Shown here piece after piece: positions 13,585 through 30,043 of a DNA stretch of 64,000 bases. Origin of the DNA: Vibrio sp. 10N.286.49.B1 (GTDB taxonomy: Bacteria; Pseudomonadota; Gammaproteobacteria; Enterobacterales; Vibrionaceae); NCBI RefSeq assembly GCF_002873335.1, contig NZ_MCUW01000015.1, forward strand, positions 70,221 to 134,220, given 5' to 3'. The stretch's first letter is position 1; the number at the start of each line of letters is the position of its first letter. Both the position numbers and the translations under genes were made by a program. Under the pieces are notes generated by a model. The model was not told where the DNA came from and did not search any database. It was given only the letters and a program-made list of their open reading frames with translations.

Positions 13585-13596
13585 TTATTTGGGGTA
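13579..13596. other. left attachment site (island end)
   Basis: Core GAACTG (13579-13584) is shared by tRNA and island. It is followed by the island arm TTATTTGGGGTA (13585-13596). This arm is the inverted partner, 11 of 12 bases, of the right arm TACCCCTAATAA. The octamer TTGGGGTA recurs at 13790-13797, perhaps an accessory recombinase site. Confidence 0.85.
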
Positions 13597-13828
13597 GTGA
13601 TAACTCATATTTATTAACCCCAACTCGTTACTATTTTAGAGTTTTCATATATAGCAATGCCTGTGGAGGTTGATTTCGATCTGTTTAAGTATGCTACCTC
13701 TTATTTTTAATTACAATAATGAGGTTGTACTTAAAGTTAACCAGCTTAATTGGGATGTAGTTGATTGATGCAGGCCAGTTTTTTGTAAATTGGGGTACTT
13801 TGTACTGATCTAATCCTTAAACAATTTT

Positions 13829-14044: not shown

Positions 14045-14062
14045 CTTAATCTTGTGAAATAT

Positions 14063-14090
14063 CACAAAACACACTATAGTGTGTTTTGTG
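14063..14090. promoter_or_regulatory. 28-bp perfect palindrome, operator of the Xre regulator
   Basis: The half-site CACAAAACACACTA is followed directly by its exact reverse complement. The centre ACTATAGT contains a TATAGT/ACTATA -10-like hexamer on both strands. It lies in the 165-bp gap between the Xre gene (minus) and the 180-residue gene (plus). An Xre dimer binding here could repress both. Confidence 0.75.
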
Positions 14091-14209
14091 GTTTGCTAAT
14101 CACTCAGCCTAGTTCAGTTTGCCGCTGTCTAATTTTGGCTGAATACCTCCCCACTGATGAGTAATCGTCAGTGGGTTTTCTATTTTTTTAAAACACTAAT
14201 GAAAGCATA

Positions 14210-14752: not shown

Positions 14753-17108
14753 CAGCGGGAGAACCAAACAAATCCACTGCGTCTTTCGGTGTTTTGTACT
14801 TCAACGTTAATAAACTTGGCATCTTCTTGGGAAGAAGTTCACCTTCTCCATCTTCAACATACTTACCTAAAATGAAGTGGATAAAATCTTGCTGATTATT
14901 ATCTGTGAATGCGGTATCAATTGCTGTTCTAGCATCAGCTACACGAGTAGCGCGAGACTTGGTTTCAGCCGCATACGCGACATAAGCAAGCACATCGTAA
15001 ACATCACTATTTTCCGCATCGATTAACTCTTTCATCGCACCAAGCTTCTCAGCATCATACCCATGCTCAGCTAAGTTCAATAGTAACTGCTCTCGCGTAG
15101 TCGCATCTGACCAAATCTCACGTAGTTTATCTTCGTTTTCAAAAAATTTAGGCAGGTCATCAAACATTAACTGCATGAACTCATGAGCTGTTATAGGTTT
15201 ATCTCCATGCCAGTACATTACTGAGCTAATGTGCTTAATAGAGCGCTCTTTACCATCACTAAGCTTAATCTTAACTTTCTTTTTCTTCTCGCAAATACAT
15301 GGTAACGCACCGCACTCTTTACATGGCTTAGGCACTGTTGGATCACAAGCACAAGGCTGCTGTCCACATTTATCACATGGCTTGCCTCCACCACGAGGTT
15401 TTGGTTCTTCAGGTTCTAACGGTTCGCCATCCCATTCTGGATCAGCAAAGTTATGATAGGCTTTTACAAAATCATAGATAGTGAAATAGTCTTTCCCGTC
15501 AAAAACACGAGTTCCTCGCCCAACGATCTGCTTAAACTCAATCATGTTTTTACATTCACGCATCAAAACAATATTACGGACATTTCGAGCATCAACCCCA
15601 GTCGATAGCTTGCGAGAAGTCGTTAAAATCGTGGGAATTGTCTTTTCATTATCTTGAAAGACCTTAAGATCGATTTCTCCTGCTTTACCGTCATCTGCGG
15701 TAACTCGAACACAGTAAGAAGGATTTCTTGTCCAGTTTTTAGATACGGCATATTCATTGATGAAATCACGCACCATGCCAGCGTGCTCTTGGGTGGCGCA
15801 GAACACGATGGTTTTCTCTTTAGGATTAAATTTATCCATCCAATAATGTACTCGTTTTTTCTCACGAGCAGGGATGGTGATGATGCGGTTGAAATCACCT
15901 TCCTTATAAACATGCCCCTCTTTAGGCTCTCCATCAACGATGACACCATCACCTTTTGTATAGACGTACTCATCCATCGTGCCGACGATAGGTAACACTT
16001 TAAAAGGTGTTAAGAAGCCATCATTAATGCCTTCTTTCAAGGTATAACTATAAACAGGCTCACCGAAGTATTTGTATGTGTCGGTGTTGTCTTTACGCTT
16101 TGGTGTTGCCGTTAAGCCTAGCTGAACCGCAGAATCAAAATATTCGAGAATCCCACGCCATGAACTTTCATCCTTAGCCCCACCTCGGTGACATTCGTCA
16201 ATGATAATGAAGTCAAAGAAGTTGGAAGGATAATCTCCAAAGTAAGGAGCAGCTTCACCATTTTCATCTTTACCAGACATGAATGTCTGAAAAATAGTAA
16301 AGAAAATAGAACCATTTTTAGGGACTTTTCCTGCTTTTTTTATTTCTTTTGGTTCAATTCGAACGACTGCATCTTCTGGGAAAGGAGTGAAGTCATTAAA
16401 TGCTTGGTTGGCAAGTATATTACGATCAGCAAGGAACAGAATCTTCGGGCGACGAGTTGCTTTCGATATGTCAGTCTGAGCTATTATTGACCATCGAGAA
16501 TAGAATAACTTCCATGCTATCTGGAAAGCTATCGATGTTTTACCTGTTCCTGTTGCTAGCGTCAGTAGGACTTTGCTCTTGCCCTTAGCAATCGCTTCTA
16601 AAGTATTCTCAATTGCGTTTTCTTGATAGTAACGAGCCTTCCAGCTTCCCCCTTTCGTATCAAGAGGAATATCCGCAAAGCGTTGTCGCCATTCAGCTGC
16701 ACAGCCAGAATCAGTAAAGGTTAATGCCCAGAGTTCCTCTGGTGTAAGGTATCTATCAACTAGCTCTTGCTGACCTGTGACCATATCTATCTGGTAGATA
16801 TCATGACCATTGGTGGCGTAAGCAATCCTACATTGAAGACGAGTCGCATAGTCGATAGCTTGTCGCACACCTTCGGAGTAAGACAAAGACTCTTTCTTTG
16901 CCTCAACGACACCGAGTTTTTTACCTTTGTATTCTAAAACGTAGTCTGACGAGACTTTAGTGCCACGCTTACCACCGTTCATGATGCGACCAGGGCAGAT
17001 GACCTCACGGCGAATATAACTGTGCTCGGTGCTACCCCAGCCGCATTTAACTAACATAGGATCAATAAAGTCCGCACGGGTATCGGCTTCGGTTCTTTGT
17101 GAGGTCAT
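14706..17108 (-). CDS. hsdR: type I restriction enzyme, R subunit (EcoEI-like)
   Basis: An 800-residue restriction/translocation subunit. The PD-(D/E)xK nuclease is near the N-terminus: D55 in SSDYVLEYKGKK and E69-A-K71. The SF2 motor follows, with Walker A ATGTGKT at 185-191, DECH at 304-307, and LGLTATPKR and VGRGTR motifs. A cysteine-rich insert (CDKCGQQPCACDPTVPKPCKECGALPCICEKK) and C-terminal domain are of the EcoEI R_C type. It cuts unmodified DNA after translocation with HsdM and HsdS. All key motifs are intact. The start is 25 bp after the hsdS stop, making hsdM-hsdS-hsdR one operon. Confidence 0.95.
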   Translation of the reverse strand: MTSQRTEADTRADFIDPMLVKCGWGSTEHSYIRREVICPGRIMNGGKRGTKVSSDYVLEYKGKKLGVVEAKKESLSYSEGVRQAIDYATRLQCRIAYATNGHDIYQIDMVTGQQELVDRYLTPEELWALTFTDSGCAAEWRQRFADIPLDTKGGSWKARYYQENAIENTLEAIAKGKSKVLLTLATGTGKTSIAFQIAWKLFYSRWSIIAQTDISKATRRPKILFLADRNILANQAFNDFTPFPEDAVVRIEPKEIKKAGKVPKNGSIFFTIFQTFMSGKDENGEAAPYFGDYPSNFFDFIIIDECHRGGAKDESSWRGILEYFDSAVQLGLTATPKRKDNTDTYKYFGEPVYSYTLKEGINDGFLTPFKVLPIVGTMDEYVYTKGDGVIVDGEPKEGHVYKEGDFNRIITIPAREKKRVHYWMDKFNPKEKTIVFCATQEHAGMVRDFINEYAVSKNWTRNPSYCVRVTADDGKAGEIDLKVFQDNEKTIPTILTTSRKLSTGVDARNVRNIVLMRECKNMIEFKQIVGRGTRVFDGKDYFTIYDFVKAYHNFADPEWDGEPLEPEEPKPRGGGKPCDKCGQQPCACDPTVPKPCKECGALPCICEKKKKVKIKLSDGKERSIKHISSVMYWHGDKPITAHEFMQLMFDDLPKFFENEDKLREIWSDATTREQLLLNLAEHGYDAEKLGAMKELIDAENSDVYDVLAYVAYAAETKSRATRVADARTAIDTAFTDNNQQDFIHFILGKYVEDGEGELLPKKMPSLLTLKYKTPKDAVDLFGSPAVIRETFLGFQKYLYS

Positions 17109-17133
17109 GGTTATCCTTTTCCTGATCTAAATG

Positions 17134-18309
17134 CTATAGCTTGCCACTAAAAGCTTGCTGTAATACTGATTGCTTAAGTTCATCTAATGCTCTGATTTTA
17201 TTTGTATACACTAGCTTTAATCGAGAAGTCTCATTTTTTAGAGAGGCAACTTGAACAATTAGTTTTCTTTGCTCTTCAATACTAGGCAGAACAAGAGGTA
17301 ATTCTTTAATAATTCCCATATTTAACCCAGCCATAATAGCTCCTTTAGCTCGGCTTAAAAGATATTTTCTAGCTATTGGATGGTGCAGGAAATAAATATG
17401 TAAGTACTCTGGCAAGCACTTATTTTGATCTAATGTAATACAGCAAATATGTTTAGTATTGATTGCTTTGGGTATGTCATCAGGAACGATTACGCACCGA
17501 CCACATGTACCCATTATAGTAATTAACACATCTTTTGGCTTAACCTCAAATCGTGATAGTTCTTCAAATTTCTCAGGTGTTATGAATCGCTTAGCCCCCC
17601 ACTTAAACTCGTTATCAACAGCATTATCAATTCCTAAAACAGCAATTCCGCTATCAACAATCTCTTTCTTTAACAACTGACTACCAAAGGGACCAGTCCT
17701 CATTGACCCTTTCTCATTTTTTGCGGCATCAAGCACGGTGCAGTTCGGTTTAGTGTGCTCGGAGAAAATAGAGTTCAGGCATAAAGATTCAAATAGCTCA
17801 CGAGCATTTTCTAGGTTTTGTTCTGCGTTCTGCTTCGCTTTTTTGATATCAGAAAAAATGGTATCTAACTTGGAAACTATTTGTTTTTGAACTTCTAGAG
17901 TAGGTACGTTAATACGAATAGATTCAATTTGCTTTTTATTAATTGAATTGAAAACTGCGCCATCACTCCCAACGAGGTTCTTTTGGATCGACAGTAGGAA
18001 CAAGTATAGAAATGATCGATCGATATGCTTGGCTCGAATTGCAGCTAACCCTCGACCTATACAAATTTCTTCTGTCGCTATATTTATAGGGCCGACAGGT
18101 GCTCGAACAGACATTAAAATATCACCGTCAAGCGCGATTTTAGTTACCTTTGATGTCCATTTAACAGGTGGTTTTAGGTACTTATCACCATACTCTTTTT
18201 TACCTTGATAAAAGGGCAAACCTATACAATCAGTATTGTAATACTTCCCTTCAGGACTTTGCCCTGCAACAACCTCACAAACATCAATTAATTTTTTAAC
18301 TTGCCACAT
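17134..18309 (-). CDS. hsdS: type I restriction-modification specificity subunit
   Basis: A 391-residue specificity protein with two target-recognition domains (about 1-135 and 185-345). Each is followed by a helical conserved region: LEVQKQIVSKLDTIFSDIKKAKQNAEQNLENARELF in the middle and EEQRKLIVQVASLKNETSRLKLVYTNKIRALDELKQSVLQQAFSGKL at the end. Its length suits a full bipartite recogniser. The ATG overlaps the hsdM stop (TAATG), so translation is coupled. Recognition sequence cannot be predicted. I see no second hsdS or partial copy nearby. Confidence 0.93.
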   Translation of the reverse strand: MWQVKKLIDVCEVVAGQSPEGKYYNTDCIGLPFYQGKKEYGDKYLKPPVKWTSKVTKIALDGDILMSVRAPVGPINIATEEICIGRGLAAIRAKHIDRSFLYLFLLSIQKNLVGSDGAVFNSINKKQIESIRINVPTLEVQKQIVSKLDTIFSDIKKAKQNAEQNLENARELFESLCLNSIFSEHTKPNCTVLDAAKNEKGSMRTGPFGSQLLKKEIVDSGIAVLGIDNAVDNEFKWGAKRFITPEKFEELSRFEVKPKDVLITIMGTCGRCVIVPDDIPKAINTKHICCITLDQNKCLPEYLHIYFLHHPIARKYLLSRAKGAIMAGLNMGIIKELPLVLPSIEEQRKLIVQVASLKNETSRLKLVYTNKIRALDELKQSVLQQAFSGKL

Positions 18310-19757
18310 TACAGCAACCCTCGGACATTCATAAGAATTGCTTCACTCTCTTTATCGAGAGTCATTATTTCCTCTATGATTTCAGATGGCTTACGAAGTG
18401 GGACTTCTTCTTCGACATTAGGATTTTTTACGCTTAAGTCTAAACTAGTATCAAGGCTTGCTACATCAAGAGACCAAGATTTATCTGAATCTGAAAACGT
18501 CTTTTGAAGTGTAACGAATTCTTTTAAGTCATTATCGTTCAGTGGATTAGTCTTTCCCATTTTACGACCTGGATCTAACTCGTAAAACCATGTCTTTTGA
18601 GTTGCCGACCCTTTTTCAAAGAACAAGACGACAGTTTTTACCCCTGCTCCAATAAATGTCCCAGCTGGGCAATCCAATACCGTATGCAAGTTACAGTTTT
18701 CCAAAAGCTCTTTACGTAAAGCGATGGCAGCATTATCAGTATTCGATAAGAAGGTATTTTTGATAACGACAGCACCACGACCGCCTGCTCTTAGTTTTTT
18801 GATGAAATGCTGTAAGAACAAGAAAGCTGTTTCACCCGTTTTAATCGGGAAGTTTTGCTGAACCTCAGCACGCTCTTTACCACCAAAAGGTGGGTTGGCT
18901 AGGATAATATCGTGGCGCTCACAGTCTTGGATATCAGCGATATTTTCAGCTAGCGTGTTGGTGTGAATAACATTGGGAGCTTCAATACCATGAAGAATCA
19001 TGTTCATGATTGCGATAACGTAAGCTAGCGATTTTTTCTCTTTGGCATAGAAAGTATCACTTTGCAGAGTATCAAGGTCTTGAGTCGATAAGCCCTCTTT
19101 CTTACTCAGATAATCAAATGCTTCACACAAGAAGCCTGCCGAGCCTGCTGCGCCATCGTAAATAGTTTCACCAATTTTAGGCTGAACAACATCGATCATG
19201 GCACGGATCAATGGGCGAGGTGTATAGTATTCACCACCGTTGCGACCCGCGTTACCCATGTTCTTGATCTTGGTCTCGTAGAGGTGCGATAGCTCGTGCT
19301 TTTCTTCTTGAGAACGGAAGCGAAGCTCATCAACTTTCTCTAGACAGTCACGTAGTGCGTAACCACTTTGGATTTTGTTTTTGATCTCACCAAAGATCTC
19401 GCCAATCTTGTATTCGATAGTGTCTGGGCTTTCAGCACGTTGTTTGAAGCCTTTTAGATAACGGAAAAGCTTGTTATCGACAAACTCCATTAAATCGTCA
19501 CCGATCAAGGCGTTGTCATAATCAAACTCACCATCAATCTTAGGTGCTGCCCACGAAGACCAGCGATACTCCTCATCAATGATGTACTGGTACTCTTCAA
19601 ACATCAGCTCGGCATTGATCTTCTTGTCTTGCTCTAAGTCATCAAGGTACTTAAGGAATAGCATCCAAGATGTTTGCTCTGTGTAATCAAGCTCTGAAGA
19701 GCAACCTGCATCTTTGTGAAGGATGTCATCGATGTTTTTAAAAGTAGTTTCAAACAT
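18309..19757 (-). CDS. hsdM: type I DNA adenine methyltransferase subunit
   Basis: A 482-residue N6-adenine methyltransferase. The N-terminal helical HsdM_N domain is followed by SAM-binding motif I DGAAGSAGF (201-209) and catalytic motif IV NPPF (288-291). NGGEYYTPRPLIRAMID is typical of HsdM just before the catalytic domain. With HsdS it methylates the recognition site; with HsdR it forms the restriction complex. It is the first hsd gene, 80 bp after the serine recombinase stop, and may share that transcript. Confidence 0.95.
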   Translation of the reverse strand: MFETTFKNIDDILHKDAGCSSELDYTEQTSWMLFLKYLDDLEQDKKINAELMFEEYQYIIDEEYRWSSWAAPKIDGEFDYDNALIGDDLMEFVDNKLFRYLKGFKQRAESPDTIEYKIGEIFGEIKNKIQSGYALRDCLEKVDELRFRSQEEKHELSHLYETKIKNMGNAGRNGGEYYTPRPLIRAMIDVVQPKIGETIYDGAAGSAGFLCEAFDYLSKKEGLSTQDLDTLQSDTFYAKEKKSLAYVIAIMNMILHGIEAPNVIHTNTLAENIADIQDCERHDIILANPPFGGKERAEVQQNFPIKTGETAFLFLQHFIKKLRAGGRGAVVIKNTFLSNTDNAAIALRKELLENCNLHTVLDCPAGTFIGAGVKTVVLFFEKGSATQKTWFYELDPGRKMGKTNPLNDNDLKEFVTLQKTFSDSDKSWSLDVASLDTSLDLSVKNPNVEEEVPLRKPSEIIEEIMTLDKESEAILMNVRGLL

Positions 19758-19837
19758 GTATTTTCTTCTTATTCATTAAGCTACACAGTGCCGTATAGCT
19801 TTTAGACCTATGCTGTCGCATAGGAATATCGATTCGT

Positions 19838-20419
19838 TTACTCAAATAAAGAGCGCTCTTGAGGAGATTCAACACCATCCAGCGCTTTATTGAGAGTTGG
19901 TCGGCTAACACCAAAGTGCTCAGCAACTTCAGTTTTTGTCACCGACTTATCAAGTAGCATCGCTTGTGCTTTCTTGATGTCAGAAGCCGTCAGTTTAGCT
20001 TTACGCCCACCTTTACGACCTCTAGCTCTCGCTGCTTTCAACCCAGCTTTGGTACGCTCAGAGATAAGCCTACGCTCAAATTGAGCGATAGCTCCTATCA
20101 TATGAAATGCTAATTCACCTACAGCGGTCGTAGTATCAATGCTTTCATTCAAACTAATGAATTTGATACCTTGTTCTTTAAAGCCATCAAGCAGTTCTAT
20201 CAAATCTTTTAGGCTTCGTCCTAGTCTATCCAAGCGCTGGACAACGACAATGTCGCCTTCTCGAAGTGCATCAATCATACGTTCTAATTCAGGACGTTGC
20301 TTTGATTTACCGCTACATTTCTCAATGTAGATTCGTTCGCAGCCTGCCGACTCTAAAGAATCGATTTGTGAATCTTCGTTTTGATCATCTGTGCTAACTC
20401 GTGCATATCCAATTTTCAT
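19838..20419 (-). CDS. serine recombinase, resolvase/invertase family
   Basis: A 193-residue small serine recombinase. The catalytic Ser9 is in MKIGYARVSTDDQ, RLDRLGRSLKDL carries the conserved arginines, and AFHMIGAIAQFERRLISERTKAGL is the E-helix. A C-terminal Hin-type helix-turn-helix follows (DKSVTKTEVAEHFGVSRPTLNKAL). It lies upstream of hsdM on the same strand. Such enzymes resolve cointegrates or invert DNA. Stretches around GTTTAC/GTAAAC at 20440-20550 could hold its own site. It is not the recombinase expected to integrate the island. Confidence 0.93.
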   Translation of the reverse strand: MKIGYARVSTDDQNEDSQIDSLESAGCERIYIEKCSGKSKQRPELERMIDALREGDIVVVQRLDRLGRSLKDLIELLDGFKEQGIKFISLNESIDTTTAVGELAFHMIGAIAQFERRLISERTKAGLKAARARGRKGGRKAKLTASDIKKAQAMLLDKSVTKTEVAEHFGVSRPTLNKALDGVESPQERSLFE

Positions 20420-20645
20420 CGAAGTACCGTAGGAAAAGGTAGGTTAAGTTTACATAGATAACTTTACGAGTTTCTTTACGGAGAATCAAACAAAATCAGA
20501 ACGTAAACTGTAGATTCTGTATGGTAAAGGAAATGACCGTTTGATTTACACTAAGCAGAAATGTTCTATCTCGGGGATCTAGGATGCTGGACTTAAAGGC
20601 CTTCTAGAGTTTAAATTTCTTTATAAGCAGTGACAGGTAAAGCTG

Positions 20646-20849
20646 ATGAATATCACATATGTAGATGAGAAGGTTAGAGAAGAGCTACTAAAGCTCTTCA
20701 ATGACGACGAACAAATGGCTGAAGAATGGCTGACAACACCAAAGCGTGTACTCAATGGTTTGAGTCCGTTTGAAACCTTGGCTACTGAACAAGGTAATAC
20801 CAAAGTTCTCGAAGTAATCCAGCGAATCAAGTGCGGGGATTTTTCTTAG
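20646..20849 (+). CDS. ParS/MbcA-like antitoxin C-terminal domain protein (solitary)
   Basis: A 67-residue protein. The C-terminal part AEEWLTTPKRVLNGLSPFETLATEQGNTKVLEVIQRIKCGDFS resembles the toxin-binding domain (DUF2384) of Xre-type antitoxins of RES toxins, which has WL..P...L.G..P...L.T..G...V...L.RI..G. The N-terminal HTH found in full antitoxins is missing. No RES-domain toxin is adjacent. AGGTAAAGCTG precedes the ATG. It may be a stand-alone relic, an anti-toxin against a chromosomal toxin, or a regulator of the neighbouring defence genes; the last two are speculation. Confidence 0.7.
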   Translation: MNITYVDEKVREELLKLFNDDEQMAEEWLTTPKRVLNGLSPFETLATEQGNTKVLEVIQRIKCGDFS

Positions 20850-20911
20850 CGAGGTGGCTTTGATATGTAGCTAGCCTACAGACTCCCTGTAGCACCTAAA
20901 ATGATCTTCAT

Positions 20912-21439
20912 CTATCCAAGGTACGTTACATAAGCAGCTAAAGACGCCAAACTGAATATAGAAAACCCTAATGCAAAAAAAAGCCACCTTAAACTTTTTG
21001 TAAACGCTGACATTTTATCCATACAGATAGAGGTACAAATCCAGTAATTTTCCAAAAGGTCATTGTCTAAATCGAATTGGCCGCTCATTAGTGTGTCATA
21101 GGTGGATTTTAGTTCATTAATACTCTGATGGGTGTCTGACATAGAAGCGAACGACACCAATGAAGTTTGAGCTGTAGAGGCTAATCTGGGAGTAAATACA
21201 GACTTTATGTGGAAGAACCACTTAGTCCAAATAACCAGGGGGATACCTATGAATGAGCCGATCAACATGCTTGGTATGAGTATCTCTTCGTCTGATAAGA
21301 TTGAATAGAATAAAGATGCATATATACCCATAAATGTAACGCCAGCTGCTAAAACAAAAGATGCTTTTTGATCCGCAGCAACAATGTATGCATCAGTTCT
21401 AGCTAGGGCGTTATAAAGTATGGTCTGTTCGTTTGTCAT
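20912..21439 (-). CDS. pycTM: Pycsar effector, transmembrane (PycTM)
   Basis: A 175-residue membrane protein with the Pycsar-effector (former DUF5706) layout. The signature YIVAADQKASFVLAAGVTFMGIYASL is in the first hydrophobic segment (about 20-48), a second segment is at 55-73 (PSMLIGSFIGIPLVIWTKWFF), and a C-terminal segment is at about 148-172. The middle part is a soluble linker. In characterised systems the cyclic pyrimidine nucleotide made by PycC triggers the effector to damage the inner membrane and stop phage replication. It starts 20 bp after the pycC stop, in one operon. The direct pairing with a class III cyclase makes the assignment strong. Confidence 0.85.
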   Translation of the reverse strand: MTNEQTILYNALARTDAYIVAADQKASFVLAAGVTFMGIYASLFYSILSDEEILIPSMLIGSFIGIPLVIWTKWFFHIKSVFTPRLASTAQTSLVSFASMSDTHQSINELKSTYDTLMSGQFDLDNDLLENYWICTSICMDKMSAFTKSLRWLFFALGFSIFSLASLAAYVTYLG

Positions 21440-21458
21440 CAGAAGAAACTCTCTTTGA

Positions 21459-22823
21459 TTATTTAATCATTACACCGATGCAATCACTAAATATAAGTGC
21501 TCCATCTTTATCAATAACTTTACACTGCATGGTATGTAGGCCTCGGTAAGAGGTAAACTCTGGCTCAGACACTGTTATTGAAGGCGGTATAGTGCGTGAA
21601 TAAGGTGCTTGACGAGGAATATTGATGTACAAAGCTTTTTTTGCTGAAGCTACTCCCTCTTCAGCTTCAGGAACATCTTGACCATAATTTGTTTTAATCA
21701 AGTTTACAGTTAGTGGAAACTTTAAGCGGGCGCTTGTTAATGCAGAGACATTAAAGAGTAAATTCAAACCTTTATCTAAGAATTTTGATGCAGAAATATA
21801 CTCTTTTTTTCCATTGTCTTCCTCAATAAAACACTTAAAATCAATAGCATGGTTTGTTCTGACATTAGCACTTACCTTGCTACGTACGCTATTTGGTAGA
21901 GCACTTATTTCGATGAAACGGTCAAAGGAAAGTTCTTTCATTCGATAATTTAAAGGAGAATTATCTGTATATGTAATGTTAGGCGTCAGGTATTTCTGCG
22001 GTTGCTTAATACCGTCTACCTCAATCTTTTTGTAGTGTGAAAAGTAATCTGGCCAATTTACGAAATCGAGTAAACCTTGCCCGAGCATTGTACTGTTTTT
22101 ACTTGCTCGACTTTGAAGTTTTGATGACATATCCACTGAGAGTCCTGTAGCAGAAACTTCACCAACAGTGGTGTAGCCAAAGTTGCCCCATATAACCTCA
22201 TCATCATTACCAAAATCTATTCCTACTCGAAATCCGAAATCCTTAGGGTCAAGTCCGTTTTTTTCCATCCAAGGAGTTATGCCTTGTTCTAAAAGGATTT
22301 TTAAAGTTGTAGCGCAATTAATAGCATCCGCAATAGAGTTTTCTTGGGCTTTATCTGCACTTCCAAAGAATGACATTACAGCATCACCCATTATTCGATG
22401 TACATAACCATCAAAAGCTCTCACTACCTCAATACAAGTTTGAATTACCGCATTTTTAAAAGAAAAGACGGTATCTAGGTCATAAAGTAGAGATAGTCTC
22501 GTTGAGCCTTTAATATCAACAAACATAGTACAAGAATAACGATTAATTCGCTCACTAGTTGACTCTAAGCCAACAAAGTCTGGATGTGTACCTATAGGGG
22601 TGGTATTAATCCCTTCCTTTTGGAAATACTGGCGTATTTGGGTTTGCAATATAAATTCTTCTTGAGGTCCAGTAGGTAACATGCCTTCCATCCCAATGTT
22701 ATCATCAAAAACCTGACGAGCCTCAATGATAGATTGTTGGCTCTTTTGAATGCCATACTTTGATGATTGCTTGGTGTAGACGTTATCAAATATCTCTTCT
22801 AAATTCATAACTGACAAACCCAT
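21459..22823 (-). CDS. pycC: Pycsar pyrimidine nucleotide cyclase (PycC)
   Basis: A 454-residue protein with a class III nucleotide cyclase core. The two metal-binding aspartates are D103 in TMFVDIKGSTRLS and D147 in HRIMGDAVMSFFG. GFRVGIDFGNDDEVIWGNFGYTTVGEVSATG follows, then a C-terminal region (about 300-454, ending in a beta-rich SITVSEPEFTSYRGLHTMQCKVIDKDGALIF) resembling the AGS-C sensor domain. PycC enzymes make cCMP or cUMP on phage infection; which one is not readable here. Start choices are 22823 and ATG at 22808 (MNLEEIF); neither has a strong ribosome site. It is the first gene of the pycC-pycTM operon. Confidence 0.87.
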   Translation of the reverse strand: MGLSVMNLEEIFDNVYTKQSSKYGIQKSQQSIIEARQVFDDNIGMEGMLPTGPQEEFILQTQIRQYFQKEGINTTPIGTHPDFVGLESTSERINRYSCTMFVDIKGSTRLSLLYDLDTVFSFKNAVIQTCIEVVRAFDGYVHRIMGDAVMSFFGSADKAQENSIADAINCATTLKILLEQGITPWMEKNGLDPKDFGFRVGIDFGNDDEVIWGNFGYTTVGEVSATGLSVDMSSKLQSRASKNSTMLGQGLLDFVNWPDYFSHYKKIEVDGIKQPQKYLTPNITYTDNSPLNYRMKELSFDRFIEISALPNSVRSKVSANVRTNHAIDFKCFIEEDNGKKEYISASKFLDKGLNLLFNVSALTSARLKFPLTVNLIKTNYGQDVPEAEEGVASAKKALYINIPRQAPYSRTIPPSITVSEPEFTSYRGLHTMQCKVIDKDGALIFSDCIGVMIK

Positions 22824-23118
22824 TAGCTCAATATGATTGTTCCAATCATACTTCTGACTAAGTTATTGTTCAATATTGATATTTTCAGTTAATAACTGAT
22901 AGATATGTCAATTATTTGCAGCGCCCTCATGATGCGTTCTGCTCACGCAACTATTTAATGATGCGAGCAAATAACCAAAAAGAGATTAGTAAGTAAAATG
23001 CGATCGGTAACTTACGCACTAACTTTGTTTTATGAGCGTAGTAATCAAGTTAAAATTTGACAGTTACAGGGGCATGGTTCAATGATACTCAGGTATTCAG
23101 AATGAGAGCGGGCAGTGA
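22824..23118. promoter_or_regulatory. divergent intergenic region between pycC and the 156-residue gene
   Basis: AT-rich region of 295 bp that must hold promoters for pycC (minus) and the next gene (plus). Short AT-rich blocks such as AATATTGATATTTTC and AAGTTAAAATTTGACAG are present, but no clear operator was seen. Confidence 0.4.
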
Positions 23119-23589
23119 ATGAGTAAATTGTGGTTTAGTGAAATGGACTTTCAGTTTCAAACCCATCCACTAGGGTTAGAAAGGAACGTTCGTGGGGCGT
23201 GGGAGCTTGGGATGAAACGGTTTCATTGCCTGAGTAGTGAACTGACTCCCACAGCCACAGAGAGCATTGATGAAATCAATGCTCATATCGGTGTGGATGT
23301 GTTCAATATTAACCTCGCTGATTTCAAAGAAAGTTATCGTACCTCTGTTGAACTTTCTCTTGTGCTTCGAGAAGACAATGCAGCTAGGTGGGTTTGGTTT
23401 ACTGGGACTAATGCACTTAAAGACTCTGATTATGCAGGTTGGCTACGCTCTTTGCTAACTACGCGGGATATCGAGAACCTCCGTGTAGTATTCGTTCTCA
23501 AAACTAGATCAGATTACTTGGAGATTTTTCAAAATAGCCAAGCCCCTCTTTATAAGTCAACCTTACCGCTAGATTCTTTAATAAAGTGA
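23119..23589 (+). CDS. unknown 156-residue protein
   Basis: Unrecognised. The protein is soluble, with no signal peptide or membrane segment. It begins MSKLWFSEMDFQFQTHPLGL and has a mixed alpha/beta look with hydrophobic strands (ARWVWFTGT, NLRVVFVLKT). Asp/Glu and Trp are frequent. It lies between the Pycsar operon and the GMT module and is read divergently from pycC, with 295 bp between. It could be cargo of unknown defence or regulatory function. The frame is open from a well-placed ATG and codon use is ordinary, so I take it as real. Confidence 0.65.
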   Translation: MSKLWFSEMDFQFQTHPLGLERNVRGAWELGMKRFHCLSSELTPTATESIDEINAHIGVDVFNINLADFKESYRTSVELSLVLREDNAARWVWFTGTNALKDSDYAGWLRSLLTTRDIENLRVVFVLKTRSDYLEIFQNSQAPLYKSTLPLDSLIK

Positions 23590-23710
23590 TTGAGACAATT
23601 AATTCAATCACTTTTGGGGAAGGTTTAGTTACGCCACTTATCAACACAGCAATTAAATGCAGCTCCACAGACTTGAGTAACCTACATAAGTCGCTGTTAG
23701 TAGCCTTTTG

Positions 23711-23938
23711 TTAGCCTTTAGTGCTACTTGGATCGTTACCATAGCTATGCTTAGCGCGTATCTTCCCATTATCACCGCGATGGATAGAAACTTCTGATTG
23801 AGCCTTCTTAGCTAAATCTCTTGTTTTTTCAAACGCTTCTTGTTGAGTTTTTGCAGTCACGCTAGCGCGACTAGCATCTTGTTTTTTTCCTCTCCAAACA
23901 CCGTCTGAACCTTGGAAAACATTATAATCATCAGCCAT
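23711..23938 (-). CDS. DUF2188-family small protein
   Basis: A 75-residue basic protein: MADDYNVFQGSDGVWRGKKQDASRASVTAKTQQEAFEKTRDLAKKAQSEVSIHRGDNGKIRAKHSYGNDP. The order V.....W.....AS...T..EA......A......V.IH..DGKIR..HSYG.DP is the DUF2188 pattern, a small domain common on mobile elements with unknown function. AAGGTG lies 6 bases before the ATG at 23938, so I prefer this start to 24004. It sits 136 bp beyond the gmtX stop and could be read with it. Confidence 0.8.
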   Translation of the reverse strand: MADDYNVFQGSDGVWRGKKQDASRASVTAKTQQEAFEKTRDLAKKAQSEVSIHRGDNGKIRAKHSYGNDPSSTKG

Positions 23939-24074
23939 ATAAATCACCTTATGTAACAATTGAGTTGGATCACCGTTGTGTGTGCAACCACACAATATGT
24001 ACATGGGTATTTATCCAGTAAAATTCAAGTCTTAACTGGTGTTTTTTTGTACTCCTTAAAGCTAGCAGGTAGGG

Positions 24075-24743
24075 CTAAGTCAAAAGCAATTTGTTCTCTA
24101 GGTAATCAAAGAATGTCTTACTTATTCTTTTATCGAGAGTACCGTGAAAATCATCGCTCAAATCAACAATATCACGATTGACGTGATCTATTGTTATGAT
24201 GTCTTCAGAGCGTTGTACTAGCCAATTTATTGTAGCTATAAGGTTATCAATTGATTCTTGGTTACTTTTTGGCATTAGCGTGGTTTTGTTTTCAAGAGCT
24301 AACGGGTTAATGTTTTCGTTTTGAAGTAGGGCATCAGATAACACCATGATTTCTTGATTTTTTTGTTCAATTTCAATTTTTAGTTTGTCGATTTCCTCCA
24401 ACTTTTCAAGAGAGCGAACCATTGAGCTAACTTCTTGCTTCTTTGTGTCTGAATAGAAGCTGTAAAATATTGCTCCTAATTCGTCCCAGTAGGGGCTTTT
24501 CCCTAACGTTCTATATGAAATTTCTTTTTCTGCTATAGGTAAGTTACTGTTGTAGATTTCGGCACATACCCTTCTAAATGCAGTGACATTTTTGAAGTGT
24601 GTATTTTCACATATAGCGCGTACCTTGGGGCAGACAATATCTTTAATACGTTTGGTACGATAGGAGACCTTAGCTTGCTGTGATTTAGAAAATCTATTTT
24701 GTCCTTTTTTTGCTCCACGAGTCTCAATGTGTGTTTTTGTCAT
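24075..24743 (-). CDS. gmtX: Gamma-Mobile-Trio protein GmtX
   Basis: A 222-residue protein, the third gene of the module. It has a basic N-terminus (MTKTHIETRGAKKGQNRFSKSQQAKVSYRTKRIKD), a region with HTH-like features (FKNVTAFRRVCAEIYNSN...ISYRTLGKSPYWDELG) and a coiled coil (MVRSLEKLEEIDKLKIEIEQKNQEIMVLSDALLQNE). The small partner of three-gene tyrosine-recombinase modules has this DNA-binding plus coiled-coil plan. It is 9 bp after gmtZ. The name is assigned from memory of the GMT family, mainly on gene order and size; similarity to the known GmtX could not be tested. Confidence 0.75.
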   Translation of the reverse strand: MTKTHIETRGAKKGQNRFSKSQQAKVSYRTKRIKDIVCPKVRAICENTHFKNVTAFRRVCAEIYNSNLPIAEKEISYRTLGKSPYWDELGAIFYSFYSDTKKQEVSSMVRSLEKLEEIDKLKIEIEQKNQEIMVLSDALLQNENINPLALENKTTLMPKSNQESIDNLIATINWLVQRSEDIITIDHVNRDIVDLSDDFHGTLDKRISKTFFDYLENKLLLT

Positions 24744-24752
24744 AAGTGGCTC

Positions 24753-27700
24753 CTATTTAAGGTCTAAAACCAGTGATGAGTCATTTGTTAACGCATTTAA
24801 CTTATCACCTAGCTCTTGAAGAGAAATGCCACTCAGCGTGCATACAGTAGCTATAATGCCTTTGAAGTCATTTAGCAGATCATACCCTTCAGGTTCTTGC
24901 AATAACTTCTTATAATCCTTGGTAGACACTAACAGTTGTTTTCTTAGTTTAGATACTTTTGCTTTCAGTGCTGGAGTCATGTATGCAGCACTTTTTTCCG
25001 CATCATTAATTTTCAGCAATGTGATAGTCAGCTCATTACTTGCTTTGAGTTGAGTTAGGTGTTGACTAATAATTTCAGGTTGTTCGACCAGCCACCGATC
25101 TTTCTTTGAAAGGTCACTGGTCATTTTTGACAAAAAGGAGTGCGTTGCGCTCCATGCGGCTATTTCGTCAGAGTAGAATTTTTTGTCTTCTATTTCATCT
25201 TTCATGTTTTCTGATTTTTCTTTGCGCTTTTTAGCATCATCAATCGATAATTGAACTTCATCGAGAGCGTCGGTGTACTTTCTTAGTCTCATGCCAATAG
25301 CTGATAAGTGATCGACGGTTTTGATTGAGTAAGGACACTCTCCGCAATGCCTTTTCCCATGGCCAAATCTTTGAACGATATCATCGGGGCATTGGTTACC
25401 AAAAGGGCAAATATGTGTAGTATCAAGGTATAACAGGTCGGTCAATTCACTCTTGAGTGATTTGGACTTATTAAGTTCAATTAGCTTCTTTATTCCATCT
25501 TTAAACTGGTTTGTCGAATCATATCCACCAAATGATACAGCACCAAAGTCTAGAAGAACCTTGCCTAAGTCATTACCTCTAAGTGCTTTTCTGAGAGCTG
25601 AGTTTTCACTTTGTGTATCTATAATTGCTGCCTCTATCTCACTCATGAACTGCTCGCTGCTTGCAAGCTCATGATTTGCTATCACTCGATCTTTGATTTG
25701 TGCGTAATAGTAAACGTGAGCATCATCAATGTGGCCTGTGCATTGTTTTATAACATGAGGAGGAAGTATCGTGATTTTGTCGGAAACAACCTGAGAGCGA
25801 CATGAATGTACAGTTGACTTGATTTTGATACTTGAGTCATTAACAAACTCAAGCATGTTCAAGTCGTTGTGGTTAGAGGCTACAGCTAGATGTTTAGTTT
25901 CATCCTGTTGAAGCATCTCAAAAGAAACAGCTTTTAGTAAGGTGCGGAAGTACTTCGATAATGAATCCCCTGTTGCCACACTAAAAGATTCATATATCTT
26001 ATAATCTGAAGCAGCGATAGCGAAGAGGGGATTAACCTTACCAAAACCGCTGTTTTTGACATTGTTGTACCAAATAGGTCTGTTAGGGCCTCTAAGGAAT
26101 GTATTTTTGAACTTCAACTGATTATTAAGGGTTTGGAGTACTACATCTGATACTGTTGCATCCCAAGATCCATGAGATTTGTCTGTATTAACATGAACTT
26201 TGTTAACCCCATAGCCTCTTGGGTAAAGGGGATTCTGCGTGAGGCTTATACTGTTGTATGTGCCAGCGTCTAGCCAACGAGTATGAATACCTCGAAACCC
26301 ACTCTCCATAATTACAGCTATTAGGTTTGAATTGTGTGGATAAAGAACGTTGTCCCTCAGCGCGCCGCGTTCTTTGATTGTTTCTGAGACTCGTATAGGA
26401 GAAAGGAGCGTCGATGGGATTACCTTAATAGCCTTTAAGACGCCATTGACAATATATAGCGGTACAAACCCCCATGCCTCTGTATCTATAAGGCATTTGT
26501 TGTTTGTCTCTAAGACTAGTTTTCTTCTCAGTTCTTTATCAGCGTGGAAGTTAACGTAGTCTATAAACTCACATATGGCATAGTTGTATGCGAGAATTAT
26601 AGGATACCCCCCTTCGGGAACTAAGATCTTTGTTGTTCCAGTAGATCTCCGAACTTTTGGGATGTCAATTTTATCTACAAAAGGCGATTTAAAACCTTTA
26701 ATATCTGACTCAAGCCACTCCAGAAACTCTTTCTGCCTTCTCATATAGCCGTCAATGGTAGTACTTTTAAGCCCTCGTTTTTTTAGATGCGCTTTCGAAA
26801 CTTGAAGGTGCTCCCGATTGTATTCGAGTATTTTTGGAAAAGAGATACCTTCAACTAAAAGTGGTTGAAGAATTACTCGCCTAAGAGTTGCATGGTATTT
26901 ATGAGCTGAGTGATAGCCTTGCTCTATGCATTCATCAACATATTCTTTGAACCGCCTCTCCCACACAAGGTGGTTAGGGTTATCTTTGGCTTCTTTTTTT
27001 GTTAACCAGTCAGTTGGAGAGTTAGCTGTGGGCGCATGTCTGACGACTACCAATTTGTCAGAACTAAAGCCCAATTTATCTTCATGAACGTCTATGATTG
27101 CAGAAAGCCAACCAGTAGTTTTTACAAAACCAAGGTCTTCATTGCCCTTTAGTTTTGAATATTCCTCTAGGTGAGATTCGTTTAAATCATTGAGTGACCA
27201 TACATCTTGAGCACGCACAACTCGATGGGCATACCAGTTAATGTTGTTAATGGAGGATGGTGAGATATGATCATTGACCTTAAGGTCGAATGGTTTTTGT
27301 AGTAAAGGGCTACGGGCAAGCTTTAAAAACTGAGGGTAATAATCTTCACCGATGTATTGTTTACAGTTTTTTGACTCTTCTTTACCTTCGATTTTACTCG
27401 ATATTTTTACCACCTCGTAAGGGAGTCGTGAGTATGAGGTGGGTAGTAGTACAGCTTTAATGCACCAAAGATTGTGCATGAAAAGGTGAAGATGTGCACG
27501 AAGCTTGTCTAGTTTTGCTTTTTGCTTTGGTAGTAGCTTTGTTTCTTCAGTAAAGAAATTCGAAATTTTCTTCCTATACTCAGGTGAAGTTCGATTAGAT
27601 ACAAGATGATATAGCGAGTTGAGCCATTTCTTCGAAAGGTCTGGATTGCTTTCAATATCATTGAAATATTGTATGAAACAATATTTCAGTTTATTCCGTG

Positions 27701-27851
27701 CATTCTCATTCACAGCTTCATTAATGGAAACGGATTTTTTACCCTCAAAATCTAGGATTATGGTTTTTGTTAAATTAGCGGCTTCAATTATCAGCTCTTT
27801 CACTTCCTTATCATCACAAAGAAAATGCAGATCTTTAGTTAGGTTTAGCAT
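24753..27851 (-). CDS. gmtZ: Gamma-Mobile-Trio integrase-like protein GmtZ
   Basis: A 1032-residue protein, the large middle gene of the module. It contains a SAM-like N-terminal helical region and a long core (DATVSDVVLQTLNNQLKFKN..). A late cysteine-rich segment (HICPFGNQCPDDIVQRFGHGKRHCGECPYSIKTVDH) probably binds zinc, and coiled-coil segments follow it (SIDDAKKRKEKSENMKDEIEDKK). I place it in the VPA1269/GmtZ family by size, order and the Cys-rich tail. Its start overlaps the gmtY 3' end by 17 bp. It probably forms the integration complex with GmtY. Confidence 0.8.
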   Translation of the reverse strand: MLNLTKDLHFLCDDKEVKELIIEAANLTKTIILDFEGKKSVSINEAVNENARNKLKYCFIQYFNDIESNPDLSKKWLNSLYHLVSNRTSPEYRKKISNFFTEETKLLPKQKAKLDKLRAHLHLFMHNLWCIKAVLLPTSYSRLPYEVVKISSKIEGKEESKNCKQYIGEDYYPQFLKLARSPLLQKPFDLKVNDHISPSSINNINWYAHRVVRAQDVWSLNDLNESHLEEYSKLKGNEDLGFVKTTGWLSAIIDVHEDKLGFSSDKLVVVRHAPTANSPTDWLTKKEAKDNPNHLVWERRFKEYVDECIEQGYHSAHKYHATLRRVILQPLLVEGISFPKILEYNREHLQVSKAHLKKRGLKSTTIDGYMRRQKEFLEWLESDIKGFKSPFVDKIDIPKVRRSTGTTKILVPEGGYPIILAYNYAICEFIDYVNFHADKELRRKLVLETNNKCLIDTEAWGFVPLYIVNGVLKAIKVIPSTLLSPIRVSETIKERGALRDNVLYPHNSNLIAVIMESGFRGIHTRWLDAGTYNSISLTQNPLYPRGYGVNKVHVNTDKSHGSWDATVSDVVLQTLNNQLKFKNTFLRGPNRPIWYNNVKNSGFGKVNPLFAIAASDYKIYESFSVATGDSLSKYFRTLLKAVSFEMLQQDETKHLAVASNHNDLNMLEFVNDSSIKIKSTVHSCRSQVVSDKITILPPHVIKQCTGHIDDAHVYYYAQIKDRVIANHELASSEQFMSEIEAAIIDTQSENSALRKALRGNDLGKVLLDFGAVSFGGYDSTNQFKDGIKKLIELNKSKSLKSELTDLLYLDTTHICPFGNQCPDDIVQRFGHGKRHCGECPYSIKTVDHLSAIGMRLRKYTDALDEVQLSIDDAKKRKEKSENMKDEIEDKKFYSDEIAAWSATHSFLSKMTSDLSKKDRWLVEQPEIISQHLTQLKASNELTITLLKINDAEKSAAYMTPALKAKVSKLRKQLLVSTKDYKKLLQEPEGYDLLNDFKGIIATVCTLSGISLQELGDKLNALTNDSSLVLDLK

Positions 27852-29277
27852 GGTTTACTTTCCCTTTAGCCTCTAATTTATCGAACTCGCGCTTTATTTC
27901 TTCGAGTTTTTTTGTCTTAACATCCAAGACAATATCTTTTAATGTCAAACCAGAGTATTTAATTGCATTGTTTACCAATGTAAGCAGTATCTCTGCTATC
28001 GAGCTATCTTTGCGAGCATACTTTTCAGTGGCGCTAAGAGTGGCATGACCCATAAGTATTTTGACACAGCCGATAGGCAAGCCATATTGACCCGTTGGTG
28101 TGCCATCTTCACTAATTATCGGGATGTGATTGACCGTATATACACCATACATATGGCGGAAACTATGTGATGAGTATTGGGATGCAAACTCAGAGCCTAA
28201 ATGCTTCGTTAAGCGCTTTTTTAAGACTGTGCACATTGTTGATTTATCACTTGCGAAAAAAGGACGGCCATTGCTTTTTTGAAACAAGAATTGGTGGCTC
28301 ATATTTGGTTGGTAAAAATTTGCTAGGTAGATCTTTAGAGCATCCCAAAACAGTGATGCAAATGGCTCAATGAGAAGTGTTTTCTCTGTTTGTCTTCCTT
28401 TAAAAACAAGCTTCTCGGCTTCTTTCTGTGTAAGCCCTTTATACGGCCGACTATCGATTGATACAATTTTTACTTTTTTGTTTTCTATATCGATATCTTC
28501 GAGGAGTACTTGGAGGGCCTCGCTTATTCGAACACCTGATGCAGCTTGCAACGAGTCTAGTAAGTAGTCTCTCGATCTTGTTAACGTCATTTTCCTATCA
28601 AGTTCAAACTTTTGGTTTAACAGAAGATTAAACGCATCATTTGATGGGAAGGCTTTTTCGTATGTATCTGAGCTGTCGCTGCTACCCTTGTTCGCTCTAA
28701 TTGCTCTTGGGAATAAGACTGTTTTCTTTGAGTGCTTATATGATTTTTCAGTTTTACGAATACATTGAGCAAACCATGATGATGATAGGATTTTAGACTG
28801 TTGCCTGCTGCTTACCTTCTGCTCTAGCTGAAAGCGCTCTAGAAAGCCAGAGTTGCTATCAAGCTCTAAAGTATGTAGTAGGTAGTCTAGAGCTGAAGTA
28901 ATTTGTCCAGATACGATAGTGTTAGAGATAGGTTGAGTTTTATTGAGTTCTATTGCCAACTGTACTACGAGTTGGTTATCTGCCCTTAAACCGAAGACAA
29001 GAAAGTCGTAATAGAGGTCGAAAACTGAAGTTGGCGAAATGTCATTGTCATCAATTAGAGAAGAGGGCTGGAGTCGCAGTTCATACAAAAAGTCTAAGAA
29101 ATTAGCGGCATGTTTTGTGTACGAGTCAATAGTGTTGTTTGATAACCCCTTTTGGAGTAAATGAGCAACATAGTTGGAGAAAGGTATATAGGCTTTTTTA
29201 GAATCTAGGTTTAGTAGAATCATCCCTTTCGATATCGTAGTACCTTTAATCAGTTTGAAATTTTTCATCCCACTCAC
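27835..29277 (-). CDS. gmtY: Gamma-Mobile-Trio tyrosine recombinase GmtY
   Basis: A 480-residue site-specific tyrosine recombinase with all catalytic residues visible: R250 (AASGVRISEAL), a lysine region near GRQTEK, H371 and R374 (SSHSFRHMYG), H411 (MGHATLS) and the nucleophile Y420 (TEKYARKD). Residues 30-140 form the SAM-like core-binding domain. It is the first gene of gmtY-gmtZ-gmtX, with AAAGGTG shortly before the ATG, and lies next to the right attachment site, as expected for an integrase. It should catalyse exchange at the 6-bp GAACTG core. Confidence 0.92.
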   Translation of the reverse strand: MSGMKNFKLIKGTTISKGMILLNLDSKKAYIPFSNYVAHLLQKGLSNNTIDSYTKHAANFLDFLYELRLQPSSLIDDNDISPTSVFDLYYDFLVFGLRADNQLVVQLAIELNKTQPISNTIVSGQITSALDYLLHTLELDSNSGFLERFQLEQKVSSRQQSKILSSSWFAQCIRKTEKSYKHSKKTVLFPRAIRANKGSSDSSDTYEKAFPSNDAFNLLLNQKFELDRKMTLTRSRDYLLDSLQAASGVRISEALQVLLEDIDIENKKVKIVSIDSRPYKGLTQKEAEKLVFKGRQTEKTLLIEPFASLFWDALKIYLANFYQPNMSHQFLFQKSNGRPFFASDKSTMCTVLKKRLTKHLGSEFASQYSSHSFRHMYGVYTVNHIPIISEDGTPTGQYGLPIGCVKILMGHATLSATEKYARKDSSIAEILLTLVNNAIKYSGLTLKDIVLDVKTKKLEEIKREFDKLEAKGKVNHAKPN

Positions 29278-29408
29278 CTTTTAATTGAATCCTATAAATG
29301 GATTACATTTAAAGAGTAACATGAAAACATTCAATTACAACCCACTTTTGGGATGTGCTTGAAATCTTTAAATGCAACCTAGATTTGATGATAAAGTTGG
29401 ATTTTCGG
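29278..29408 (-). promoter_or_regulatory. promoter region of the gmtYZX operon
   Basis: On the minus strand TTGTAA, 16 bp, TACTCT forms a plausible sigma70 promoter. Closer to the gene lies an inverted repeat AATCC-TATAAAT-GGATT (29289-29305), possibly an operator. No gene fits here; the rest is AT-rich. Confidence 0.45.
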
Positions 29409-29442
29409 AAAAAAAAAGAGAAGCAATAATGCTTCTCTTTTT
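29409..29442 (-). terminator. terminator of the island tRNA-Ile2 gene
   Basis: A 13-bp stem AAAAAGAGAAGCA with loop ATAA is followed on the minus strand by nine or more T. It is 8 bp beyond the tRNA CCA end. Its 16-base core GAGAAGCAATAATGCT is identical to the terminator of the split host tRNA, suggesting that the island copy came from the same locus in a relative. Confidence 0.88.
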
Positions 29443-29449
29443 CTAAAAG

Positions 29450-29765
29450 TGGTGGCCCCTCCCAGACTCGAACTGGGGACCTAACGATTCAGGTTATCCA
29501 ATGCTTTCGCAAAGGGCTGGACTATATCATCACCCACGTAAACGTTAGGGTGTCGGACGCTAATGATGTATTACACAGCAAGTTCGTGCTGAGCCATCTA
29601 GTCTCTGAACCTTCCTAGTACGCTTACTAGGCTTGGCTGCTGATTGGCATGTTTCTAATGAAACGAAGCTTTCCAGCAATTCATCCGATTTTTCCACATA
29701 TTATTACTAATATGGGTCACAATAATTTATGAGTCGCGCGCTCTAACCAACTGAGCTAAGGGGCC
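29450..29765 (-). tRNA. tRNA-Ile2(CAU) interrupted by a group I intron
   Basis: Exon 1 (29765-29729, 37 nt) reads GGCCCCTTAGCTCAG ... GACTCAT. Exon 2 (29489-29450, 40 nt) reads AATCGTTAGG ... GAGGGGCCACCA. Spliced, it gives a 77-nt cloverleaf: acceptor GGCCCCT/AGGGGCC, anticodon loop CTCATAA, T-stem CCCAG/CTGGG, encoded CCA. The sequence matches minor isoleucine tRNA (CAU, needing lysidine made by TilS), not methionine tRNA. It has its own terminator and an AT-rich upstream region, so it is an autonomous gene inside the island. Its T-arm still contains GAACTG but with different flanks from the host gene. Confidence 0.92.
29490..29728 (-). ncRNA. group I self-splicing intron in the anticodon loop
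   Basis: 239 nt inserted after anticodon base 36. P1: exon UCAU pairs with intron GUGA (29720-29717) with the required U-G at the splice site. The intron ends in G (29490) before exon AATCG. P2 hairpin at 29697-29714; GTTTC-ATTA-GAAAC hairpin at 29651-29664; P6-like stem CCTAGTA/TACTAGG at 29614-29631; the conserved P7 strand CAGAGACTAGATGG (29607-29594) pairs through GACTA with TAGTC in TATAGTCC (29526-29519); GCGAAAGC tetraloop at 29503-29510. The same insertion site and CAU/GUG P1 occur in the Azoarcus tRNA-Ile intron. It is too short for a homing endonuclease. Confidence 0.9.
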
Positions 29766-29879
29766 ATATTGTATGCGCTAACTATACAATAGATAACGAC
29801 TTAAATGTACTATTTATTTTGTCATTGAGACAACATCTAACTATGCTTTTTGAGATAATTTAAATATATCCCAGAAAAG

Positions 29880-29897
29880 TACCCCTAATAAGAACTG
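29880..29897. other. right attachment site (island end)
   Basis: The island arm TACCCCTAATAA (29880-29891) is followed by core GAACTG (29892-29897), which continues as host tRNA. Joined to the left end, the circular attP would read TACCCCTAATAA-GAACTG-TTATTTGGGGTA, a near-perfect inverted repeat around a 6-bp overlap, as expected for a tyrosine recombinase. Confidence 0.87.
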
Positions 29898-29947
29898 CGG
29901 ACCAATCGATTATGAGTCGAGTGCTCTAACCACTGAGCTAAGGGGCC
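29892..29947 (-). pseudogene. tRNA-Ile2(CAU), 5' fragment of the split host gene
   Basis: On the minus strand it reads GGCCCCTTAGCTCAGTGG ... CGACTCATAATCG ... CCGCAGTTC and then runs into island arm sequence. Acceptor 5' strand, D-arm, anticodon arm and half the T-arm are intact. The T-loop remainder and 3' acceptor strand are 16.3 kb away at 13559-13578. It keeps the native promoter side (toward rpoD), so a truncated transcript that cannot form a tRNA is likely made. No intron is present in this copy. Confidence 0.92.
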
Positions 29948-30043
29948 TTATAGGGAAGAGATTATAGGGGATGGTAGGCAAGCTGTCTAGACGTAAGCAG
30001 GGCTAATTGCGCTTGCTTTTTAATCACTTAAACCAATAGACAC

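Follow-up and report, generated by a model that had tools for sequence, protein, structure and literature searches.

A group I intron in the tRNA-Ile2(CAU) gene of a Vibrio island that probably replaces the split host gene

The tRNA-Ile2 locus of Vibrio sp. 10N.286.49.B1

The window analyzed here is a 64,000-nt stretch of the Vibrio sp. 10N.286.49.B1 genome (contig NZ_MCUW01000015.1, positions 70,221-134,220; assembly GCF_002873335.1), and it contains a complete tRNA-Ile2(CAU) gene whose anticodon loop is interrupted by a group I intron. The gene lies on an island of ~16.3 kb that is bounded on its two sides by the two parts of the host's own tRNA-Ile2 gene. The first-pass annotation had recognized the intron-bearing gene as the island's own; what it had not noticed is that the same island cuts the host tRNA-Ile2 gene, that the intron-bearing gene appears to be its replacement, and that this design recurs on both tRNA-Ile2 and tRNA-Arg(UCU) genes. 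The features at the locus are as follows.

29961..29989, minus strand: promoter-like site (TAGACA-17-TATAAT) belonging to the native locus; the replacement tRNA now lies 196 nt below it (2 such sites in the region, 1.8 expected)
29892..29947, minus strand: 5′ part of the host tRNA-Ile2 gene, ending in the T-loop at CAGTTC (spacer, 29892-29897) and followed by TTATTAGGGG; RF00005 matches in part, at 28.1 bits (cut-off 29)
29729..29765, minus strand: 5′ exon of the replacement tRNA, 37 nt, with the anticodon CAU at its end (sequence; ARAGORN on the spliced product)
29490..29728, minus strand: group I intron, 239 nt (RF00028; conserved pairs)
29450..29489, minus strand: 40-nt 3′ exon of the replacement tRNA, with CCA encoded (sequence; ARAGORN on the spliced product)
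29418..29437, minus strand: hairpin followed by a T run, the likely terminator of the replacement tRNA (read from the sequence; absent from the consensus terminator scan)
13585..29891, no strand: the island, between the host halves, with inverted arms CCCCAAATAA and TTATTAGGGG (9/10 pairing); the site is intact in relatives
13559..13584, minus strand: 3′ part of the host tRNA-Ile2 gene, CAGTTC AAGTCTGCGAGGGGCCACCA, with the spacer at 13579-13584 and preceded by CCCCAAATAA; it rejoins the 5′ part to give an intact tRNA

The insert in the anticodon loop is a group I intron

The covariance model for group I introns (Rfam RF00028) matches on the minus strand at 29754-29498 over its full length (model positions 1-253 of 253; E 2.3e-24; 98.9 bits, cut-off 50). 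This is the only match above a gathering score in the window, and the intron is also the only RF00028 match in the source genome. The 37- and 40-nt exons and 239-nt insert proposed in the first-pass annotation are as described, and the hallmarks it listed can all be read from the sequence: exon UCAU can pair with intron GUGA to form P1 with a U·G pair at the 5′ splice site, the last base of the intron is G, GACUA/UAGUC (GACTA/TAGTC in the DNA) constitutes P7, and a GAAA loop is present. A possible P10 is formed by the AUU directly 5′ of GUGA with AAU of the 3′ exon. Comparison of five sequences (the window intron, those of three sister islands, and one phage gene) shows that 21 of the 85 predicted pairs have changed on both sides and still pair in at least one sequence. 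The model score, the pair counts and the sister islands rule out chance or artefact as the source of the intron, and we regard it as confirmed that the anticodon loop of the island-borne tRNA-Ile2(CAU) gene holds a group I intron, the splicing of which is predicted from the sequence.

The joined exons are called by ARAGORN as a tRNA with anticodon CAU (which the program labels Met), and the spliced product resembles the intact tRNA-Ile2 genes found at the rpoD locus of relatives, in agreement with the earlier proposal of a correct isoleucine tRNA. One weak spot is a C27·U43 mismatch in the anticodon stem, which can also be read in the host's own tRNA-Ile2. In its default mode ARAGORN calls no tRNA in the window; its intron mode recovers the replacement gene with the 239-nt intron. 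Because the default caller misses such genes, genomes that carry them will seem to lack a tRNA.

The hairpin that follows the replacement tRNA and a second one after the host 3′ part (13520-13549) both contain GAGAAGC..GC..TC. This common sequence looks as if the replacement derived from a locus like that of the host tRNA-Ile2.

The host tRNA-Ile2 gene is split by the island

The host remnant at 29947-29892 ends 126 nt upstream of the replacement tRNA. When the two host parts are fused at the spacer, ARAGORN accepts the product as a tRNA, and over the length of the tRNA it is identical to the intact gene of another genome (G015, locus L135). An ordinary duplication of a tRNA end at the island boundary is ruled out, as both pieces are partial and join to an intact tRNA. 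Eighteen other genomes of the genus were compared at the rpoD-side locus. ARAGORN calls a CAU tRNA there in 17 of them, and the one in G011 turns out to be a replacement that follows a split gene; an intact, intron-less tRNA-Ile2 is in place in 16 of the 18, and in the remaining two (G018 and G011) it is split by sister islands.

Is the island copy the only tRNA-Ile2 of the strain? An exact pattern for the tRNA-Ile2 and elongator-Met class finds three places in the whole source assembly, namely the intron-bearing gene, the host remnant and one elongator Met gene. A tRNA model search of the source genome, in which 150 of 282 candidates were scored, gave 65 matches that include the remnant; CAU anticodons at these loci otherwise belong only to genes reading as elongator or initiator Met. 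In G018, which is assembled into two contigs, the exact pattern finds the replacement, the remnant and four elongator-Met-like genes, and it finds no further tRNA-Ile2 in G018, G048 or G224. It is therefore likely, judging from these searches, that the island copy is the only tRNA-Ile2 of the source strain.

Related islands in the genus

RF00028 matches at 16 places in 12 of 196 genomes of the genus, and ARAGORN in intron mode identifies 12 of these places as tRNA genes (their anticodons were read by hand, since ARAGORN mislabels several). An extra 5′ half of the same tRNA type lies shortly upstream of nine of the 12, three of them tRNA-Ile2 and six tRNA-Arg(UCU). The tRNA-Arg(UCU) genes are split either in the T-loop, after GGTTC (G140, G011 and G078), or in the D-arm, after GAGCAC (G164, G009 and G018).

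Searches for the junctions that are blind to the intron extend this set. A T-loop junction pattern finds eight of 227 genomes, adding G224, with an intron, and G100, in which a diverged tRNA-Arg replacement has none. For D-arm junctions a narrow pattern finds three of 223 genomes, all with introns, and a wider one finds four, adding a second island in G011 (L163 1663 to L145; G011:C2:3486138-3500328) that splits tRNA-Ile2 in the D-arm and carries a diverged, intron-less replacement tRNA-Ile2; the T-loop island on tRNA-Arg in the same genome has an intron. A backward control of the junction patterns gave 0 in the rows shown. Across the class the T-loop pattern is found in one of 369 genomes, the source genome itself; the patterns are tuned to the junctions known here, so that other spellings and other intron-less splits would escape them. 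The total in the genus is thus 12 islands on tRNA-Ile2 and tRNA-Arg(UCU) genes, with introns of three lineages in ten of the 12 replacements.

In the five islands compared the inverted arms pair at 8 or 9 of 10 positions around a 6-nt spacer; with a 5-nt spacer instead, only 5/10 (G048) and 4/10 (G078) arm pairs form. The island end, linker and intron-bearing tRNA of G224 are identical to those of the window at 466 of 480 positions, and the host remnant next to them is a different tRNA-Ile2 allele. The difference begins at the spacer, as expected if the island moves as a unit, and the comparison suggests that the island is likely to be mobile.

Three other loci with introns in the genus are of separate interest. 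In G067 (L057) and G088 (L059) a tRNA-Arg(UCU) gene with an island-type intron stands right at the native promoter without a remnant; either the island may have been lost or the intron may have moved into the native gene. In G142 (L058) the native tRNA-Arg promoter is followed only by GCGC, ~120 nt and then an intron-bearing tRNA-Arg, perhaps through insertion at the very 5′ end of tRNA-Arg. A further segment of G067 (G067:C19:151389-152422, L065-L067) has three consecutive RF00028 matches, none of which is in a tRNA gene by ARAGORN.

Taken together, the two pieces of the host gene, the uninterrupted site in relatives, the match to the intron model, the complete exons, the failure to find any other tRNA-Ile2 and the sister islands, all of them sequence evidence, make it very probable that a 16.3-kb island splits tRNA-Ile2(CAU) in the T-loop and brings with it a predicted self-splicing, intron-bearing copy that is likely the only AUA-reading tRNA of the cell. 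Several points weigh against this interpretation. Two of the 12 replacements (in G100 and G011) have no intron, so the design can do without one. The far end was located in six of the 12 islands; none was found in the stretches covered for G009, the Arg island of G011, G100, G140 or G164, and G224 was outside the far-end search. Finally, the source genome is a draft of 89 contigs, exact patterns could miss variant tRNA-Ile2 copies, and the tRNA-model list is incomplete, having by ARAGORN no Lys, Val, Glu, Ala or Ile(GAU) tRNA, so that the claim of a sole copy rests mainly on the exact patterns. The draft state and the incomplete list are what would allow the intron-bearing gene to be dead and a tRNA-Ile2 outside the assembly to serve the cell; we consider this very improbable, as the exact pattern finds no other tRNA-Ile2 either in the source assembly or in G018, G048 and G224, and exon and ribozyme pairs are maintained across four islands.

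Genes of the island

27835..29277, minus strand: 480-aa tyrosine recombinase, whose gene opens a trio (PF00589, 45.1 bits; relatives in six sister islands)
24753..27851, minus strand: 1032-aa trio protein, possibly a second recombinase (gene order conserved in sister islands; weak motif match)
24075..24743, minus strand: 222-aa trio protein (no family match)
21459..22823, minus strand: PycC, Pycsar cyclase (cargo; PADLOC, 466.9 bits)
20912..21439, minus strand: PycTM, Pycsar effector (cargo; PADLOC, 60 bits)
14706..19757, minus strand: type I restriction-modification (cargo), with M at 18309-19757, S at 17134-18309 and R at 14706-17108

The recombinase has relatives in G018, G048, G100, G140, G011 and G078. 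A profile search with the recombinases found 141 proteins, and named Vibrio proteins are near the top among the best 120 of the 141; three integrase relatives lie in viral contigs, where a split-tRNA context was not seen in the stretch examined. Neither the 1032-aa nor the 222-aa protein has a match in the family searches. Two of the trio proteins gave no match in the plasmid database PLSDB. A Tn554-type transposon carries a second tyrosine recombinase in a gene trio. The 1032-aa protein shows a weak profile match to the GmtZ-like protein of G018 (45 columns, 49% probability), and its structure model is unusable (mean pLDDT 41.3). The cargo, Pycsar and type I restriction, is anti-phage. A serine resolvase (PF00239; 19838-20419) and a small helix-turn-helix regulator-like protein (13829-14074) are also on the island.

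A proposed mechanism

We propose that the tyrosine recombinase exchanges strands in the 6-nt spacer inside the tRNA gene, and that the host gene would thereby be destroyed, so that the only survivors would be cells that express the island's tRNA. Transcription of the replacement could start at the native promoter that the island has captured or at a TATAGT of its own, a −10-like element that can be read in the sequence; a consensus scan lists no terminator-like site between the native promoter-like site and the replacement tRNA, and since the latter sits at the promoter end of the island either promoter could drive it. The intron would then excise with GTP, joining CAU to AAU, and would have to leave the RNA before the tRNA could form; TilS would presumably convert C34 to lysidine. 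Whether the intron, or divergence in the two islands that lack one, might also shield the replacement from the anticodon-loop integrases of rivals or from the island's own integrase is a further hypothesis, which we weigh below.

Origin and possible role of the intron

Group I introns are known in bacterial tRNA-Ile(CAU) genes, for example in Azoarcus, a comparison also made in the first-pass annotation. The window intron resembles the Azoarcus type in that it is a small intron without an open reading frame at the same anticodon-loop site of the same tRNA, and to this extent the comparison holds; the nearest intron found, however, is 69% identical and interrupts a tRNA of a Klebsiella jumbo phage. 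RF00028 is found in 56 of 369 genomes of the class; 29 such loci were inspected, and ARAGORN in intron mode assigns 26 of them to tRNA genes, in many cases to tRNA-Ile(CAU) genes interrupted at this same site, so that the intron itself is of a known kind. These class-wide examples are single ordinary genes, with a second same-strand 5′ half within the 1.5-kb flanks in none of the 26, unlike the window gene, which appears as the replacement on an island.

A tree built from 24 introns shows the four of the Ile islands clustering with that of the tRNA-Ile2 gene of Klebsiella phage Muenster, and the two kinds of Arg intron form separate lineages; the deep branches of this tree are weak. Identity to the window intron is 81-99% for the sister islands, 59% for the Arg D-arm introns, 53-55% for the Arg T-loop and native-locus introns, and 50-55% for ten chromosomal gammaproteobacterial tRNA-Ile introns; an origin from these last is not supported by the tree. 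The gene of phage Muenster (MT708547.1; L051 3007-3317) is an unannotated, intron-bearing tRNA-Ile2(CAU), which is also present in KP13-7, RCIP0023 and phiKp_21; the match to the query has 94% coverage and 72% identity. It has the same tRNA and insertion site as the window gene, and differs in sitting in a phage tRNA cluster without a split host gene. In a Vibrio phage (MG592553.1, 62760-62956; hit H25), a gene with a terminase-like annotation overlies a related intron. Among E. coli plasmid matches, the one record inspected has an annotated 76-nt tRNA-Ile adjoining phage holin genes.

The grouping of the Ile-island introns with a phage intron raises the question as to whether the intron does anything for the island. 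Replacement tRNAs on mobile DNA may simply meet phage-borne introns often, and the intron would then have no role beyond its own removal, an explanation that we hold to be quite plausible, if slightly short of an even chance. The two intron-less islands are in keeping with it, as is the presence of the Arg intron at the native locus of G067 and G088, and the absence of a nearby split copy from all 26 of the class-wide intron-bearing tRNA genes inspected indicates that introns also live in ordinary tRNA genes. Less readily accommodated are the occurrence of three intron lineages among the replacements and the split-host layout of nine of the 12 intron-bearing tRNA genes in the genus, which calls for a reason.

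One such reason could be protection of the replacement, either from rival integrases that recognize the anticodon loop or from the island's own recombinase, which we advance only tentatively and think rather unlikely. Four genomes (G003, G007, G008 and G010) have an intact tRNA-Ile2 at rpoD and, at a distance of 9 to 36 kb, a repeated copy of the 3′ part of that gene; such a repeat accompanying an intact gene is the usual mark of a target-restoring island, and these segments look island-like. The four repeats begin at or within a few nucleotides of CTCAT in the anticodon loop, the very stretch that the replacement introns interrupt. Moreover, intron-bearing T-loop replacements retain 50-56 of the 56-57 positions of the host 5′ part and the intron-less replacement of G100 only 45 of 57; the intron-less replacement of G011 has diverged too, so that each of the 12 has either an intron or divergence and none is a plain copy. 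On the other hand, the intron-less cases number just two, and in the T-loop islands the intron is 14 nt from the spacer, perhaps too distant to block the island's own recombinase (the distance is 7 nt in the D-arm Arg islands). The more general idea, that self-splicing introns are island insulators which hide the replacement from rival integrases and perhaps from the island's own recombinase, conferring a DNA-level immunity through RNA splicing, seems to us more doubtful still. We rate the acquisition of introns without such a role somewhat higher than an insulator function.

Relationship to known systems and implications

Group I introns in tRNA-Ile(CAU), islands in tRNA genes, and Gamma-Mobile-Trio (GMT) islands are all already known. 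The ordinary tRNA-integrated island (Islander; PMC9897764) likewise uses a tyrosine recombinase and a tRNA gene target; it differs from the window, where neither piece of the host gene is complete and a third gene, itself complete and intron-bearing, appears to replace them. With GMT islands the window island shares a three-gene mobility module, a tyrosine recombinase, defence cargo and occurrence in Vibrio. Its trio is nonetheless not a GMT by the NCBIfam models: for GmtY the recombinase reaches 34.6 bits where the cut-off is 340, and the GmtZ and GmtX models match neither of the other two proteins. A GMT-like trio does lie at the far end of the G018 D-arm Arg island (L109 800-6042), with scores of 44.8 for GmtX (cut-off 40), 293.3 for GmtY (340) and 458.5 for GmtZ (600). 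The tmRNA genes with group I introns (PMC11915505) are a further parallel, in that these tRNA-like genes are likewise targets of islands and are interrupted by a self-splicing intron; the intron position there is in the T-loop, and the portion of that account available mentions no island-borne replacement.

Islands that split a tRNA gene and bring an intron-bearing replacement were not met in the literature searched by title and abstract, which did not cover most subscription papers or the original GMT report (which may describe tRNA sites), so that such islands may already be in print.

If the proposed steps hold, the island controls an indispensable translation gene, and the reading of AUA depends on an island-borne ribozyme. 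Any loss of the island other than by precise excision would then be lethal, amounting to addiction without a toxin. Intron-bearing replacement tRNAs constitute an annotation blind spot, in that they escape default tRNA calling. The 12 natural cases span two tRNA species and two insertion points, with three intron lineages and two intron-less controls, and so allow the reason for the persistence of self-splicing introns in bacteria to be tested directly.
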